Part shown: positions 1,686 to 9,601 of the stretch, one piece after another | Position numbering within the stretch: position 1 is the stretch's first letter | Layout: each line of letters opens with the position of its first letter | Source: Acidithiobacillus ferruginosus | Lineage (GTDB): Bacteria; Pseudomonadota; Gammaproteobacteria; Acidithiobacillales; Acidithiobacillaceae | Length of the DNA stretch: 13,337 bases | Reading direction: 5' to 3' | Assembly: GCF_018854495.1 (NCBI RefSeq) | Contig: NZ_JABBDR010000003.1 | Span: 1-13,337 of the forward strand | Made by a program: the position numbers and the translations under genes | The notes under the pieces: generated by a model | What the model was told of the DNA's origin: nothing | What the model saw: the letters and a program-made list of their open reading frames with translations, nothing else | Databases searched by the model: none

Positions 1686-2789
1686 ATGGGTGTTCCTTTG
1701 ATTCAGAGCTATCGGGTAGGACGCTACATCCTGGCGCAGAAGCTGCAGGGGCGTAAGCGCTATCCTTTGGTGCTGATGCTGGAGCCATTGTTTCGCTGCA
1801 ACCTGGCCTGTTCGGGTTGCGGTAAGATCGACTATCCCGATGAAACCCTCGACAGGCGGCTGTCCGTCGAAGAATGTATCGGCGCTGCCGAGGAGTGCGG
1901 GGCTCCCATTGTCTCCATCGCTGGAGGCGAACCACTCATTCACAAGGATATGCCCGCAGTTGTGGAAGGCCTTGTCGAGCGTAAGCGCTTCGTCTACCTC
2001 TGCACCAATGCGTTGCTCCTCAAGAAGCGCATGGACGATTACCGGCCCTCGCCTTACCTGACTTTCTCGGTGCATCTGGACGGCAATGCGCATCGTCATG
2101 ATGATTCCGTGTGTCAGCCGGGTACCTATCAACGTGCTACGGAAGCCATTCGCGAAGCGGTGGGGAGGGGCTTCCGGGTTACGGTAAACTGCACCCTGTT
2201 TCAGGGGGAGGGCGCCGACGAGGTGGCCGCTTTCCTGGATGACTGCAAAGCACTGGGTGTGGAGGGCGTGACCATTTCGCCCGGATTTAATTATGAGCGC
2301 GCACCGCAGCAGGAGGTTTTTATCCAGCGGCGGGCCTCACGTCAGCTTTTCCGTGACATCTTCCGCATCGGCAAGGAGCGGAAGTCGCGCTGGAAGTTCA
2401 ACCAGTCCAGCCTTTTTCTGGATTTCCTGGCGGGTAACCAGAATTATCAGTGCACACCCTGGGGCAATCCGACACGCAACATCTTTGGCTGGCAGAAGCC
2501 TTGCTACCTCCTGGTGAGCGAAGGCTACGCGCAGACCTTCAATGAACTTATGGAAACGACGCCATGGGATAAATACGGAGTGGGCGTGAATGGTAAATGC
2601 GACCAGTGCCAGGTGCATTCCGGTTTCGAGCCGACGGCCGTCAACGACACCTTCGCCCACCCGCTGAAAGCCCTTAAAGTGGCCTTGCTGGGGCCACGCA
2701 CGGCCGGTCCCATGGCACCGGATATGCCGGTATCGCCCCCGGCTCAAGGTACCGAACACCCGGTTTTTCCTTTGCATGTAGAGCGCTGA
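1686..2789 (+). CDS. hpnH: HpnH, radical SAM adenosylhopane synthase
   Basis: HpnH joins the 5'-deoxyadenosyl group of S-adenosylmethionine to diploptene, forming adenosylhopane, the first step in making C35 extended (side-chain) hopanoids. The cluster motif CNLACSGC places the three [4Fe-4S] cysteines at 38, 42 and 45; it is followed by the SIAGGEPL segment of the SAM-binding region and the NQSSLFLDFLAGNQ and CTPWGNPTRN blocks that typify this family. Further cysteines lie near the C-terminus (CDQCQ). The start at 1686 gives 367 residues beginning MGVPLIQ, matching the usual HpnH N-terminus, with GAGGGG nine bases upstream. A TTG 60 bases further up is in frame but overlaps the promoter and adds a non-family extension. 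The C-terminal 40 residues are Pro-rich and look lineage-specific. Cytosolic, acting at the inner membrane. Confidence 0.93.
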   Translation: MGVPLIQSYRVGRYILAQKLQGRKRYPLVLMLEPLFRCNLACSGCGKIDYPDETLDRRLSVEECIGAAEECGAPIVSIAGGEPLIHKDMPAVVEGLVERKRFVYLCTNALLLKKRMDDYRPSPYLTFSVHLDGNAHRHDDSVCQPGTYQRATEAIREAVGRGFRVTVNCTLFQGEGADEVAAFLDDCKALGVEGVTISPGFNYERAPQQEVFIQRRASRQLFRDIFRIGKERKSRWKFNQSSLFLDFLAGNQNYQCTPWGNPTRNIFGWQKPCYLLVSEGYAQTFNELMETTPWDKYGVGVNGKCDQCQVHSGFEPTAVNDTFAHPLKALKVALLGPRTAGPMAPDMPVSPPAQGTEHPVFPLHVER

Positions 2790-2834
2790 AGGCGGTTCCG
2801 GAAAATTATCAGGTTCATGGTGAAGGGGGATTTC

Positions 2835-3494
2835 ATGCTCAGGAAAAGTCTGGTTATACTGCTGGCCTGCACCGTCAGTGGGATCGCTCCGGTCCTATCT
2901 GCCGCGGCGGTGACGGTGGCCGCACCTGCCACATCGTCCCATGGAGCGCCAGCGGTAGGCGGCACCCCGGACGCGACGATCAATACCCTGGATGCGGTAC
3001 TGCTGAAATCCATGCAAGGTGGTCGTCGCCTGGGTTACAGCGGCCGTTACCGGATCGTGGCTCCGGTGGTACAGAAGGTTTTTGATTACCGGCGAATCGC
3101 CGCCTTGACGCTGGGTGACTATTGGCAAAAGCTCAGCCCGGAACAACAAAACGAGTTTGTCGGGGTGCTCGCGGATTTTACCGCGGCCACCTACGCCGCG
3201 CGTTTCGACAGCTACAACGGCGAGCATTTTGCCATAGTGAGCAGTCAGGCATTGCAGCCCGGTGCGGAGGGGGTGTTCAGTACCTTTACGGAGCATAACG
3301 GTAAGGTGCATCATTTCGACTATATCCTGCAGAAAGACGGAGATCACTGGCGTATCGTCAATGTCGTCGCCGACGGGGTCAGTGACCTTTCCCTGCGGCG
3401 GGCGGAATATACCGAAACCATGCAGAAAAAGGGTTTTGCCGCACTGATTGCGCACCTGAAAGCGCAGATTGCCGGGTACGCCAAAGGGTCCTGA
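2835..3494 (+). CDS. hpnM: HpnM, periplasmic MlaC/Ttg2D-family lipid-binding protein
   Basis: A 219-residue exported protein. The N-terminus (MLRKSLVILLACTVSG, then a small-residue region ending near LSAAA) is a Sec signal peptide, followed by an Ala/Pro-rich linker. The mature domain has hallmarks of the MlaC/Ttg2D (toluene tolerance) family: a VFDYRRIAALTLG segment near the start, the helical W-x-KLSPEQQNEFV block, and C-terminal strands ending in HWRIVNVVADGVSD. MlaC carries phospholipid between inner and outer membranes; HpnM is its homologue in hopanoid clusters and is proposed to help move hopanoids. The ATG at 2835 is preferred because AAGGGGGA ends four bases before it; an in-frame ATG at 2817 lacks such a site. 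It lies 45 bases after hpnH, and its stop shares one base with the mlaA start, so the genes form one transcription unit. Confidence 0.85.
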   Translation: MLRKSLVILLACTVSGIAPVLSAAAVTVAAPATSSHGAPAVGGTPDATINTLDAVLLKSMQGGRRLGYSGRYRIVAPVVQKVFDYRRIAALTLGDYWQKLSPEQQNEFVGVLADFTAATYAARFDSYNGEHFAIVSSQALQPGAEGVFSTFTEHNGKVHHFDYILQKDGDHWRIVNVVADGVSDLSLRRAEYTETMQKKGFAALIAHLKAQIAGYAKGS

Positions 3495-4312
3495 TGATGC
3501 GATCGAGTATACATTTAACTAGGGTCGCGCTGACCATCGGTGTGTTGACCCTGTCGGGATGTGCGACGGTAAACGGGCCTCAGGGCGCTACGGGAAAACC
3601 CGTGGACCCGTTGGAGGCCGTCAACAGGCCGATGTTCCATCTGAATATGGGCCTTTATGATTATGTGCTGAAGCCCGTAGCCACCGGGTACAAGACCGTG
3701 ACCCCCGATTTTGTCCGCGAGGGCGTCAGCAATGTATTCTCCAATGTGGACATGCCCTATATTTTTATCAACGATTTTCTGCAGGGGCGTGGTCGACAGG
3801 GAATGGAGGATCTGAGCCGGTTCCTTGTCAATTCCGTGTTTGGTCTGGGTGGACTCTTCGACGTGGCGAACCGTCTGGATCTGCCCAACCACGAGAACAG
3901 CCTGGGGGTAACGCTGGGTGTCTGGGGGGTGCCGCAGGGGCCTTATCTGGTGCTGCCGTTTTATGGACCCAGTTCTCTGCGCAGCTTGCCCGGCCTGGCG
4001 ATGACGATTTTTACCGGGCCGGCATATTATCTGACTGTCAGTTCGGCCCAGTACGCCCTGACGGGTATGGGAATCATCAACAAGTCCTATGTCGAAGAGC
4101 CTAACATCCGGATGGTTCAGGAGGCTGTTAATCCTTATGTATTTATGCGCAACGCCTGGGAACAGCATGAGCAGTATCTGATATCCGGTGGGGCGGTCAG
4201 TAAAAACCAGTTGCTGGAGGGCCTGCAACTGCCGCCGCCGGCAAACGCCACACCCACACCCACACCCGGTGAAGCTTCCCCGAGCCACGAGAACAGGAAA
4301 GGAAAACCATAA
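3494..4312 (+). CDS. mlaA: MlaA/VacJ outer-membrane lipoprotein
   Basis: A 272-residue lipoprotein of the MlaA (VacJ) family, which removes misplaced phospholipid from the outer leaflet of the outer membrane and hands it to MlaC. A lipoprotein signal ends in the lipobox LSGC, with Cys23 the lipidated residue. Family motifs are clear: DPLEAVNR at 38-45, a central VDMPYIFINDFLQG block, RFLVNSVFGLGGLFDVA at 109-125, and GVWGVPQGPYLVLPFYGPSS. The C-terminus is longer than the common form and ends in a Pro/Thr-rich, probably disordered tail encoded partly by a short tandem repeat. Two adjacent ATGs exist (3494, 3497); the second has better spacing from AAAGGG. Pairing with hpnM suggests this MlaA partners with HpnM rather than a canonical MlaC. 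No mlaD, mlaE or mlaF gene is in view, so the inner-membrane partner must lie elsewhere. Confidence 0.92.
   Translation: MMRSSIHLTRVALTIGVLTLSGCATVNGPQGATGKPVDPLEAVNRPMFHLNMGLYDYVLKPVATGYKTVTPDFVREGVSNVFSNVDMPYIFINDFLQGRGRQGMEDLSRFLVNSVFGLGGLFDVANRLDLPNHENSLGVTLGVWGVPQGPYLVLPFYGPSSLRSLPGLAMTIFTGPAYYLTVSSAQYALTGMGIINKSYVEEPNIRMVQEAVNPYVFMRNAWEQHEQYLISGGAVSKNQLLEGLQLPPPANATPTPTPGEASPSHENRKGKP
4249..4266 (+). repeat. Short tandem repeat CACACC x3 in mlaA
   Basis: Three perfect copies of the hexamer CACACC lie inside the 3' end of mlaA and encode an alternating Thr-Pro tail. Because the unit is six bases, copy-number change would lengthen or shorten the tail without breaking the frame. Confidence 0.7.
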
Positions 4313-8338: not shown

Positions 8339-8648
8339 GGAGGTGTGGCAGAGCGGTTGATTGCACCGGTCTTGTCCCCAATCGAGCCCCTGCCGGGAAA
8401 CGGGCAGGGTGACAGGAATCAAATTCGGCGAATCCCCTGGTTTATCCGAGGTAACGCCGAGCCAAGCCGGAAAGGTTCCGGAAGGTGTAGAGATCAGACG
8501 GTTCCCACCTACAGCCTTATGGCCATGGTGAAGGCATGATCCAGACTCCAAAAGGGCCCTCTTGGTCCTGTGGCGAAAGCCATGGTGGGTAAGGAAAACC
8601 GGCAGGGGTTAACGCCCCTCGTGAGTTCGAATCTCACCGCCTCCGCCA
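8339..8648 (+). tRNA. tRNA-Ser(UGA) interrupted by a group I intron
   Basis: Exon 1 is 8339-8373 and exon 2 is 8594-8648; joined they give a 90-nt class II tRNA with genome-encoded CCA. The acceptor stem pairs 8339-8345 with 8638-8644 (one G-U), the discriminator is G8645, and CCA is 8646-8648. The anticodon stem is CCGGU (8366-8370) with ACCGG (8598-8602). The spliced loop reads CUUGAAA, giving anticodon UGA, which decodes UCA and related serine codons. The long variable arm (AGGGG/GCCCC) after the anticodon arm marks a serine-type tRNA. The T arm is GTGAG-TTCGAAT-CTCAC at 8621-8637. The unspliced gene has a split anticodon (U34, then G35-A36) and cannot give a working tRNA; splicing is required. 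A standard scan that does not allow introns may miss it. Confidence 0.95.
8374..8593 (+). ncRNA. Group I self-splicing intron (IC3-like) inside tRNA-Ser(UGA)
   Basis: The 220-nt intron follows exon U8373 and ends in G8593, meeting both group I rules. P1 is three pairs: exon CUU 8371-8373 with GAG 8384-8386, including the U-G splice-site wobble. P10 is G8594-C8383 and A8595-U8382. P2 pairs 8388-8394 with 8403-8409. P3 pairs GGAAUC 8415-8420 with GGUUCC 8500-8505. P4 pairs 8424-8430 with 8455-8461. P6a is a hairpin at 8467-8481. P7 is GAUCA 8492-8496 with UGAUC 8537-8541, and G8492-C8541 is the expected guanosine-binding pair. A P9 hairpin with a GAAA tetraloop lies at 8571-8582. The core strings CAAAUUCGGCG, ACGCCGAGCCAAGC and GAAGGUGUAGAGA recall, from memory, the Azoarcus tRNA-Ile intron of subgroup IC3. 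It encodes no homing endonuclease. Confidence 0.92.
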
Positions 8649-8826: not shown

Positions 8827-9341
8827 ATGCTCTACATTGAACCCCATGCTGGCCCCGCACCTATGGTTCAGGTGATCACCGATGCGCGGCACACGGTGGA
8901 CCTCAATGTTTACTACCTGTCGAGCAAGCCCATTTTATCAGCATTACGTCGCGCCCACGCCCGTGGCGTGAATGTCCGGGTGATTCTCGACCAGCATCAG
9001 TGCCGAAGATCAACGCAACGTCGCTGATCTGGAGCAGCACGGCGTGCAGGTGCGGCTAATGCCCAAGTCACCCATCTACATGCATGCCAAGGCGGAAATC
9101 GCTGGGGGATGAGGCTTTCATCGGGTCGGAAAATTACAGCACATCCTCTCTGGACGAAAACCGGGAAATGGGGCTGATCCTGCGTGGCCGTGAGGCCGCA
9201 CCGTTGCGGACGCAGTTTGACCAGGATTGGCGCCTGAAAACCTTATCGGCATCGGTCAATGGCTCTTCCAGACTGATGTCTTTCAGCAGCGAAAGCAAAT
9301 TTAGCTCCAGAGTTGGCACTGTTGTATCTGATCAACCGTGA
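8827..9341 (+). pseudogene. Frameshifted phospholipase D-like protein remnant
   Basis: Three consecutive reading frames together spell one phospholipase D-like (HKD family) protein. Frame one from 8827 gives MLYIEPHAGPAP...VDLNVYYLSSKPILSALRRAHARGVNVRVILDQHQ. Removing one base near 9001 continues as AEDQRNVADLEQHGVQVRLMP...YMHAKAEIAGG, containing the HxK of the catalytic motif. A second shift in the GGGGG run near 9104-9109 continues as DEAFIGSENYSTSSLDENREMGLIL, the typical region after HxK. The spacing from Lys to FIGSEN looks one residue short of the usual pattern, so the motif Asp may be displaced or lost. Homology ends near FDQDW (about 9235); the residues after that to 9341 look unrelated. 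No signal peptide is seen, unlike the exported endonuclease Nuc. Family function would be a phosphodiesterase (nuclease or phospholipase). Two sequencing errors in one gene are possible but less likely than real decay. Confidence 0.75.
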
Positions 9342-9601
9342 AGGGGTGTTTCCCCCTTGGATATACGAGAAACAACTCGATCATCATAAAATGCTGCGGT
9401 TTCTCGAACAGCTTTCGACGGGACGCAACCCTCATAGAGGCAGTTGCCGCTCATGACGCCTTTGGAATCCACCATAAGTACCTGTCTACCAGTTTTTGCC
9501 AATCGAAAGGCAGCGGGATAAGCCCCGCCACCCGCACCGATACACAGCAAAGGTACTTCCTGAATAGATATATTCGTAGTCTCCAATCCGCTAACGCCCA
9601 A
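9332..9601 (-). pseudogene. N-terminal fragment of a flavin disulfide reductase (lipoamide dehydrogenase / mercuric reductase type)
   Basis: The visible 89 codons contain the FAD-binding Rossmann start LLCIGAGGGAYPAAFRLAKTG, the strand-end acidic residue in VLMVDSKG, and the redox-active disulfide block GNCLYEGCVPSKAVRE. This is the diagnostic N-terminus of class I pyridine nucleotide-disulfide oxidoreductases, which are normally 450-480 residues long. The frame then stops after ETPLHG; the rest of the FAD domain, the NAD domain and the dimer interface are absent, and I could not recover them in other frames. There is no good ATG or ribosome binding site; the frame is continuous upstream, through a TAA at 9602-9604, with the small ORF at 9602-9706. 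It is a broken relic that cannot make a working enzyme. Confidence 0.72.

Follow-up and report, generated by a model that had tools for sequence, protein, structure and literature searches.

A group IC3-type intron, predicted to be self-splicing, within the anticodon of tRNA-Ser(UGA) in Acidithiobacillus ferruginosus

In the present study, we analysed a 13,337-nt stretch of Acidithiobacillus ferruginosus DNA (contig NZ_JABBDR010000003.1; hereafter the window), in which the gene of a serine tRNA, tRNA-Ser(UGA), is interrupted by 220 nt between U34 and G35 of its anticodon. We are highly confident, on the basis of sequence comparison, that the insertion is a small group IC3-type intron without a protein gene, predicted to be self-splicing, and that the gene it splits is the sole tRNA-Ser(UGA) gene detected in the genome. 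The intron would almost certainly excise itself, and the cell would probably need this catalytic RNA to read one codon, UCA.

The split tRNA-Ser(UGA) gene

When introns were allowed, ARAGORN reported tRNA-Ser(tga) i(36,220) for this stretch of the window, and in default mode it called the joined exons as a 90-nt tRNA-Ser(tga). The uninterrupted gene of 12 relatives gave an identical exon join. These results indicated that an earlier reading made from the letters alone (the sequence-only reading) had placed the exons, their lengths and the U34|G35 insertion point correctly. In the intron-permitting mode, a tRNA-Phe with an 11-nt intron was preferred for the joined 90-mer, which is a quirk of that mode. 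ARAGORN in default mode called zero tRNAs in the whole window.

Fold and assignment to the group I class

The score of the Rfam model RF00028 was below its gathering cut-off, and we therefore built two covariance models of our own. R3 was made from 11 non-serine introns, with no serine intron in its training, and R2 from 17 introns, six of them serine introns. R3 matched the window at 130 bits (E 2e-31), its only other match there being at 9.9 bits (E 0.53). The same model found 16/16 serine loci at 122-131 bits (122.5-131.4) and gave zero matches at E up to 10 on 12 intronless loci. R2 matched the window at 143.5 bits.

A hand-written structure, including the P3/P7 pseudoknot and P10, was then evaluated on 17 introns hosted by tRNA-Ser, Leu(UAA), Leu(CAA), Lys, Ile and Arg. 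It was observed that 92.2% of 915 cells were paired, compared with only 29-45% in controls with slid partners; having been fitted to the window sequence, the structure has an advantage over these controls. The MAFFT alignments, both of the 17 introns and of the 15 full-length serine introns, were made without structure. Two-sided changes occurred in 34 of the 54 pairs across six tRNA types, and the covariation score was 0.452 versus 0.151 after shuffling, with 0 of 500 shuffles as high. Helices P3-P8, the pseudoknot included, were 88-100% paired across hosts, with compensating changes. P3 was paired in 17/17 introns and its four variable pairs alternate between GC, CG, AU, UA and UG; the middle pairs of P7 alternate between CG, UA and GC. 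Pairing of P2 across hosts was 80%. Among the 15 full-length serine introns, 99.5% of cells were paired and most core pairs were invariant, with two-sided changes in seven pairs, five of which lie in P2.

The features that define group I introns were found in the serine copies: a P3/P7 pseudoknotted core with P4-P6 and P8, a 5' splice site after the U.G of P1 with a guide that runs into P10 (U34.G, G35-C and A36-U in 15/15 serine rows), and a terminal intron G (15/15 full-length copies). The sequence-only reading had seen P1, P3, P4, P7 and P10 by eye; all of them are present, together with P2, P5, P6, P6a, P8 and P9, with P2 and P9b each closed by a GAAA loop, and its group I reading gained support from the R3 match and from covariation. 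IC3 is the subgroup name of these bacterial tRNA introns. Homology to the tRNA-Leu, tRNA-Arg and tRNA-Ile introns, small size and the lack of P5abc, for which 8434-8451 is too short, agree with this subgroup, and P5(a-d) is described as missing in IC3 introns in PMC11835236. The intron is thus classed, by homology, as group IC3-type, the type of bacterial tRNAs.

Several results weigh against this assignment. Energy folding alone was weak (z -1.73; 5 of 100 shuffles folded equally well) and did not pick the core. The outer P9 pairs were only 64% paired across the 17 introns. RF00028, which the sequence-only reading had proposed as a check, failed as it stands: when 401 bases were searched it scored 14.3 bits (E 0.31), below its gathering cut-off of 50, and over the whole window the region had no match at E<=1. 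On six other loci of the same intron type, one passed (51.1 bits), three scored 29.1-49.7 bits and two had no match at E<=0.1. Because only one of these six loci passed the cut-off, the miss is a weakness of the general model, and its score is no structural feature of the group I class.

Proposed splicing pathway

The precursor RNA would fold into the P3-P8 core, and the guide UCGAG would pair with the exon bases CUU as P1, in which the U34.G wobble would mark the 5' splice site. A guanosine held in P7 would attack after U34, as in the known group I mechanism. The guide would then hold G35-A36 as P10, and U34 would attack after the last intron G, so that the anticodon UGA is joined. The two reaction steps are those of the known group I mechanism, which we infer to apply to the anatomy and conservation shown here.

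Distribution in the family

Orthologous loci were compared, as suggested by the sequence-only reading. Among 29 family genomes, 16 carried the intron (in G011 it is cut by a contig end), 12 had an uninterrupted gene and one (69% complete) had no match at E<=0.001. R2 gave one match each in the same 16 genomes and none in the other 13. A scan of genome contigs with an 18-base core pattern returned 16 stretches, of which 12 belong to this gene (11 ARAGORN split genes and L097, a 7405-base contig equal in length to that of the truncated locus L040), one is a tRNA-Arg(UCU) intron (L089) and three are chance. The 12 loci come from Acidithiobacillus ferrianus, ferriphilus, sulfuriphilus and ferrivorans and from further metagenome-assembled genomes of Acidithiobacillus or Proteobacteria. 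The chance pattern hits (L092, L098, L101) and a BLAST hit (L083) were set aside, as none had an R2 match at E up to 10.

Within the genus, the gene lies beside gatB both with the intron (10 loci) and without it (7 loci). In a gatB tree of the 19 loci that had gatB in the fetched flank (9 of 28 did not), rooted on two intron-bearing members of another genus, intron-bearing and intronless members of the genus formed two groups with split supports of 83 and 95. One clean loss within the genus is the simplest reading, the alternative being a gain.

Probable dependence of the cell on the intron

RF00005 listed 40 tRNAs in the A. ferruginosus genome, with serine anticodons GCU, GGA and CGA only, and 41 tRNAs with an identical serine set in the single-contig genome G003. 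A second tRNA-Ser(UGA) was found in neither list, both of which are without initiator Met, Ile-GAU and Ala-UGC. The evidence for the absence of another copy in these two genomes is strong but not complete, because both lists lack necessary tRNAs and some stretches are therefore missing. The A. ferruginosus list also has no Trp tRNA, which is intact in G003; of the two CAT tRNAs, one shares 91% identity with a tRNA-Ile(CAU). An explanation of these gaps by further split tRNAs was rejected, as the single R2 match in each intron-bearing family genome is always tRNA-Ser(UGA). A search at E<=1 detected no initiator tRNA in G000, G003 or G007. In G022 the initiator tRNA lies directly beside a 16S rRNA gene, and for this reason the gap more likely reflects missing rRNA stretches.

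The search for a second copy covered the 10 of the 16 intron-bearing genomes that belong to the genus. Eight of the 10 had no second tRNA-Ser(UGA) at E<=0.001. G005 and G007 possess an intact one, 78% and 70% identical to the split gene, inside tRNA clusters; there the split gene may be dispensable, which runs counter to a general dependence on the intron. The dependence on the ribozyme supposed in the sequence-only reading is thus supported for the A. ferruginosus genome and G003 and not for the genus as a whole (2 of 10 exceptions).

These second copies speak for another explanation, in which the insertion has decayed, the split gene has become a pseudogene that is not expressed, and a different tRNA reads UCA, for example a modified isoacceptor or a tRNA encoded on a mobile array. 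It also draws on the state of the A. ferruginosus genome, a draft in 309 contigs whose tRNA list is without Trp and initiator Met, which are needed or present in relatives. We rejected it as very improbable: the exons are intact, the core is kept in 15/15 full-length copies that diverge down to 82% DNA identity, and no other serine tRNA with the UGA anticodon was found in the A. ferruginosus genome or in G003. Removal of the intron by proteins in the archaeal manner has the anticodon-loop location in its favour and nothing further, and with a full group I core, the P3/P7 pseudoknot, a final G and the guide pairing against it, we dismissed it as having next to no probability.

The tRNA clusters with a second, intronless tRNA-Ser(UGA) and many other tRNAs were seen at G005:C77 and at G007:C1 near 1033800 (L205, L206), and also in the intronless genomes G015 and G016 (L203, L204). 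A. ferrooxidans can reportedly dispense with a 300-kb segment that carries a tRNA set; strains lacking that segment would, in that case, have to rely on a working split gene. tRNA arrays on mobile elements are described for A. ferrooxidans and A. ferrivorans in PMC5468388 and PMC10322971.

Guide pairing and host specificity

The guide of the serine intron pairs with CUU^GA, its C facing G35, whereas in tRNA-Leu(UAA) introns a U faces A35. To compare the two kinds, a script went through the borders allowed in each intron and kept the one whose guide match was best. From 75 loci entered, 70 rows were obtained (none for L105, L128, L136, L151 and L157). Because the border is wrong in 11 of these rows (L089, L131, L134, L135, L142, L143, L147, L155, L158, L165 and L169, five of them leucine genes), counts were taken only from the 15 serine and 34 leucine(UAA) rows, with borders from ARAGORN or read off the exons.

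The serine introns matched CUU^GA fully in 15/15 cases (UCGAG, or UCGGG in two copies) and CUU^AA in 0/15. The leucine introns matched CUU^AA in 29/34 and CUU^GA in 30/34 cases, the latter because U can also face G35. Unrelated targets, which give the chance level, were fully matched in 0-12 of the 34 leucine introns and 0-6 of the 15 serine introns. G003 provided 41 anticodon loops, 40 kinds listed by RF00005 and that of the split tRNA. As read from the loop list, a CUU start followed by purine-A was confined to Leu(UAA) and Ser(UGA). With wobble allowed throughout, UUGAG fits positions 32-36 in 8 of the 41 loops.

Relation to introns of other bacterial tRNAs and origin

With weak and partial matches counted, R2 at E<=0.001 matched 69 of the 369 genomes searched in the class and 41 of the 398 searched in the phylum, with some genomes shared between the two sets. 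Outside the family, 55 loci from these searches were retrieved, and a split tRNA was present in 53. The hosts, judged by the exons, were Leu(UAA) 38, Arg(CCU) 8, Arg(UCU) 2, Lys(UUU) 2, Leu(CAA) 1, Ile(CAU) 1 and Thr(UGU) 1; a serine host was absent among these 53. ARAGORN had misplaced the boundaries and given wrong labels in 15 of the 53, which were relabelled from the exons (10 Leu, 1 Arg, 2 Lys, 1 Ile and 1 Thr). The sequence-only reading had named Leu(UAA), Ile(CAU), Arg(CCU) and fMet as hosts. Serine is not alone in being absent from this list, which also lacks Lys(UUU), Arg(UCU), Leu(CAA), probably Thr(UGU), and the tRNA genes of viral contigs. Bacterial hosts beyond those named in the papers examined were L131 and L145 (Lys UUU), L144, L146 and L089 (Arg UCU), L118 (Leu CAA) and L142 (probably Thr UGU); L089 is from Armatimonadetes bacterium SZAS-2. 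A tRNA-Leu(UAA) with the same intron type also occurs on a Bradyrhizobium plasmid typed as conjugative (L071, CP094621.1).

A tree built from 75 cores united all 16 serine introns with a split support of 99; their neighbours were gammaproteobacterial leucine introns and a single arginine intron, from Armatimonadetes. A second core tree, which included viral introns, likewise had leucine introns of Gammaproteobacteria and one Arg intron next to the serine group, and deep nodes were weak in both. The position of this single group next to tRNA-Leu introns makes a move of the intron from tRNA-Leu(UAA) to tRNA-Ser(UGA) probable. The direction of this move rests on the 75-core tree, whose 132 columns and many weak nodes tell against it. 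In the proposed course, an ancestral tRNA-Leu(UAA) intron with the guide UUGAG would have been able to pair with CUU^GA through a G35.U wobble and would have entered tRNA-Ser(UGA) before the genera of the family diverged. A U-to-C change in the guide would then have fixed the intron on the serine tRNA, and clean loss would have followed in some lineages.

In the competing account, the intron was transferred from a phage tRNA or from some other host that is not leucine, or was gained repeatedly in the family; we regard this as unlikely although it deserves consideration. In its favour, viral contigs often contain such introns, including one in tRNA-Ser(UGA); the distribution within the family is patchy; and in the tree with viral introns, L089 is as near the serine group as are the gammaproteobacterial leucine introns. 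However, the viral serine intron lies among viral introns, apart from those of Acidithiobacillus; the exact 18-base pattern with P7 GAUCA had zero matches in viral contigs; and the family copies form one group, with the intronless genus members in one clade. Beyond a move from leucine to serine followed by losses, we tentatively suggest, as an idea somewhat short of probable, that bacterial tRNA group I introns switch hosts through a guide that reads the anticodon loop. The wobble of UUGAG would seed the serine tRNA by reverse splicing and a single change would lock the intron there; this would have happened at least twice, in Acidithiobacillaceae and in phage, with phage tRNA clusters as a reservoir.

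Introns of the same kind in viral contigs

Introns of group IC3 type are frequent in the tRNA genes of viral contigs (L276-L430), whose viral status is a computed call. A general core pattern found at least 120 stretches in them. Among the 80 matches listed, ARAGORN called a split tRNA that encloses the core in 59, mostly Leu(UAA), with some labels doubtful; an uncounted part of the labels was wrong, for example Tyr(ata), and was relabelled from the printed exons. A loop rule applied to 155 loci of two viral scans gave 61 Leu(UAA), 22 other believable hosts, 7 seemingly wrong assignments and 65 failures. The 22 other hosts were Arg-UCU 7, Lys 6, CAU 5, Thr-UGU 2, Glu-UUC 1 and Ser-UGA 1.

The serine case, L352 (IMGVR_UViG_3300012979_000043, 3427-3740, minus strand), is a tRNA-Ser(UGA) split at the same U34|G35 site by 224 nt, and R3 matched it at 104.9 bits. 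It lies in a cluster of 12 tRNAs with HNH endonuclease open reading frames (ORFs) at 2513-3040 and 3783-4160; a second such intron core was noticed at 2267-2381. In the tree, its intron grouped with viral introns and not with the Acidithiobacillus ones, and for this reason serine would have been reached at least twice, if the tree holds.

R2 matches also occurred in named phage records. L471 (Pelagibacter phage HTVC120P) gave 98.1 bits and L472 gave 97.2 and 60 bits, in both cases between two capsid-protein coding sequences and without an annotated intron. L474 (crAss-like phage cr116_1) and L473 (a 735-kb uncultured phage) gave 47.7 and 120.7 bits. The L474 match lies just after a DNA polymerase I coding sequence, with a second such sequence downstream and no intron annotated; the L473 record is without annotation. 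According to Hausner et al. 2014 (PMC3984707), phage introns seen up to that year are all in protein genes despite many phage tRNAs.

Features and gene context of the window

The tRNA-Ser(UGA) gene lies downstream of gatC-gatA-gatB, as identified by Pfam, and also downstream of a 188-aa ORF on the opposite strand that has no Pfam family. The UCA codon occurs once each in three of the six window ORFs counted, gatB included. An 89-aa ORF (9332-9601, minus strand) matches only positions 4-56 of the 291-position Pyr_redox_2 profile and is perhaps a gene remnant; none of the 27 other loci that were fetched showed it next to the tRNA.

Table 1. Coordinates of the split tRNA gene and of the predicted intron helices in the window.
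Feature	Position	Strand	Support
5' exon of tRNA-Ser(UGA), 35 nt, ending in ...CCGGUCUU (U34)	8339-8373	+	ARAGORN; intronless relatives
P1 5' side, exon CUU (positions 32-34), U34.G at splice site, pairs with 8384-8386	8371-8373	+	15/15 serine rows
Group IC3-type intron, 220 nt, last base G	8374-8593	+	ARAGORN; exon join; models R2 and R3
Internal guide UCGAG; 8382-8383, P10 side (pairs with A36 and G35); 8384-8386, P1 side	8382-8386	+	Guide comparison; window fold
P2 hairpin with GAAA loop	8388-8409	+	Serine alignment; window fold
P3 5' strand, partner 8500-8505	8415-8420	+	100% paired; two-sided change in 4/6 pairs
P4 5' strand, partner 8455-8459	8426-8430	+	Covariation; window fold
P5	8434-8451	+	Covariation; window fold
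P6 and P6a	8461-8486	+	Covariation; window fold
P7 5' strand GAUCA, partner 8537-8541 UGAUC, expected guanosine-binding helix	8492-8496	+	97.6% paired; two-sided change in 3/5 pairs
P8	8506-8530	+	Covariation; window fold
P9 region; P9b hairpin 8571-8582 with GAAA loop	8545-8590	+	Outer P9 pairs only 64% paired across other hosts
3' exon, 55 nt, first bases G35-A36, CCA encoded	8594-8648	+	ARAGORN; intronless relatives

Significance

With the present results, the range of tRNAs that host bacterial self-splicing introns would extend to serine. If splicing takes place as predicted, UCA decoding would rest on a ribozyme in a bioleaching family. The gene is invisible to ordinary annotation, as ARAGORN in default mode calls none and the Rfam model misses the intron; tRNAscan-SE is not designed for such introns according to its authors (PMC8450103). 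Close relatives with and without the intron offer a natural experiment on its cost, and the guide comparison is a simple test of intron movement between tRNAs.

Comparison with known systems

tRNA-Arg(CCU) is a known host of bacterial tRNA group I introns. Leu(UAA), fMet and Ile are the hosts named in the papers examined, and reviews place tRNA-Leu(UAA) group I introns also in cyanobacteria and plastids. No group I intron in a bacterial tRNA-Ser was found in a search of open-licence full-text papers; older subscription papers could hold one. Cyanobacterial group I introns of 22-49 nt reported for tRNA-Arg, Gly and Lys (PMC5733544) were not counted, being too short for a group I core.

The tRNA-Arg(CCU) introns (L134, L162 and others) share the core family with the serine intron but are inserted after U36 and have the guide UUGGG (L162, L163, L166, L170 and L172). 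The Azoarcus tRNA-Ile(CAU) group IC3 intron is alike in its small IC3 core and in the GNRA loops on P2 and P9, and differs in its tRNA and loop position. Its crystal structures are mentioned in PMC3984707. The viral L352 intron occupies the same tRNA and the same U34|G35 site, with a C facing G35 (guide ACGAG, read by eye). It differs in its separate lineage, P7 (GACUU/AAGUC), length of 224 nt, unpaired A36 in P10 by eye and HNH-bearing tRNA cluster.

The proteobacterial tRNA-Leu(UAA) introns of Bradyrhizobium (CP094621.1), Mycetohabitans rhizoxinica and Candidatus Vallotia tarda have the same insertion after U34, the same P1 (CUU with GAG) and the same core motifs. The Bradyrhizobium intron is 70% identical in DNA over 46% of the query, and the M. 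rhizoxinica core is 77% identical to that of the serine intron. P7 is GAUCA/UGAUC in the serine intron, GACUA/UAGUC in Bradyrhizobium, Mycetohabitans and Vallotia, and GAGCA/UGCUC in the gammaproteobacterial leucine introns. The tRNA-Leu(UAA) introns differ further in the host tRNA and in P10, where their U faces A35 in place of the C that faces G35 in the serine intron.
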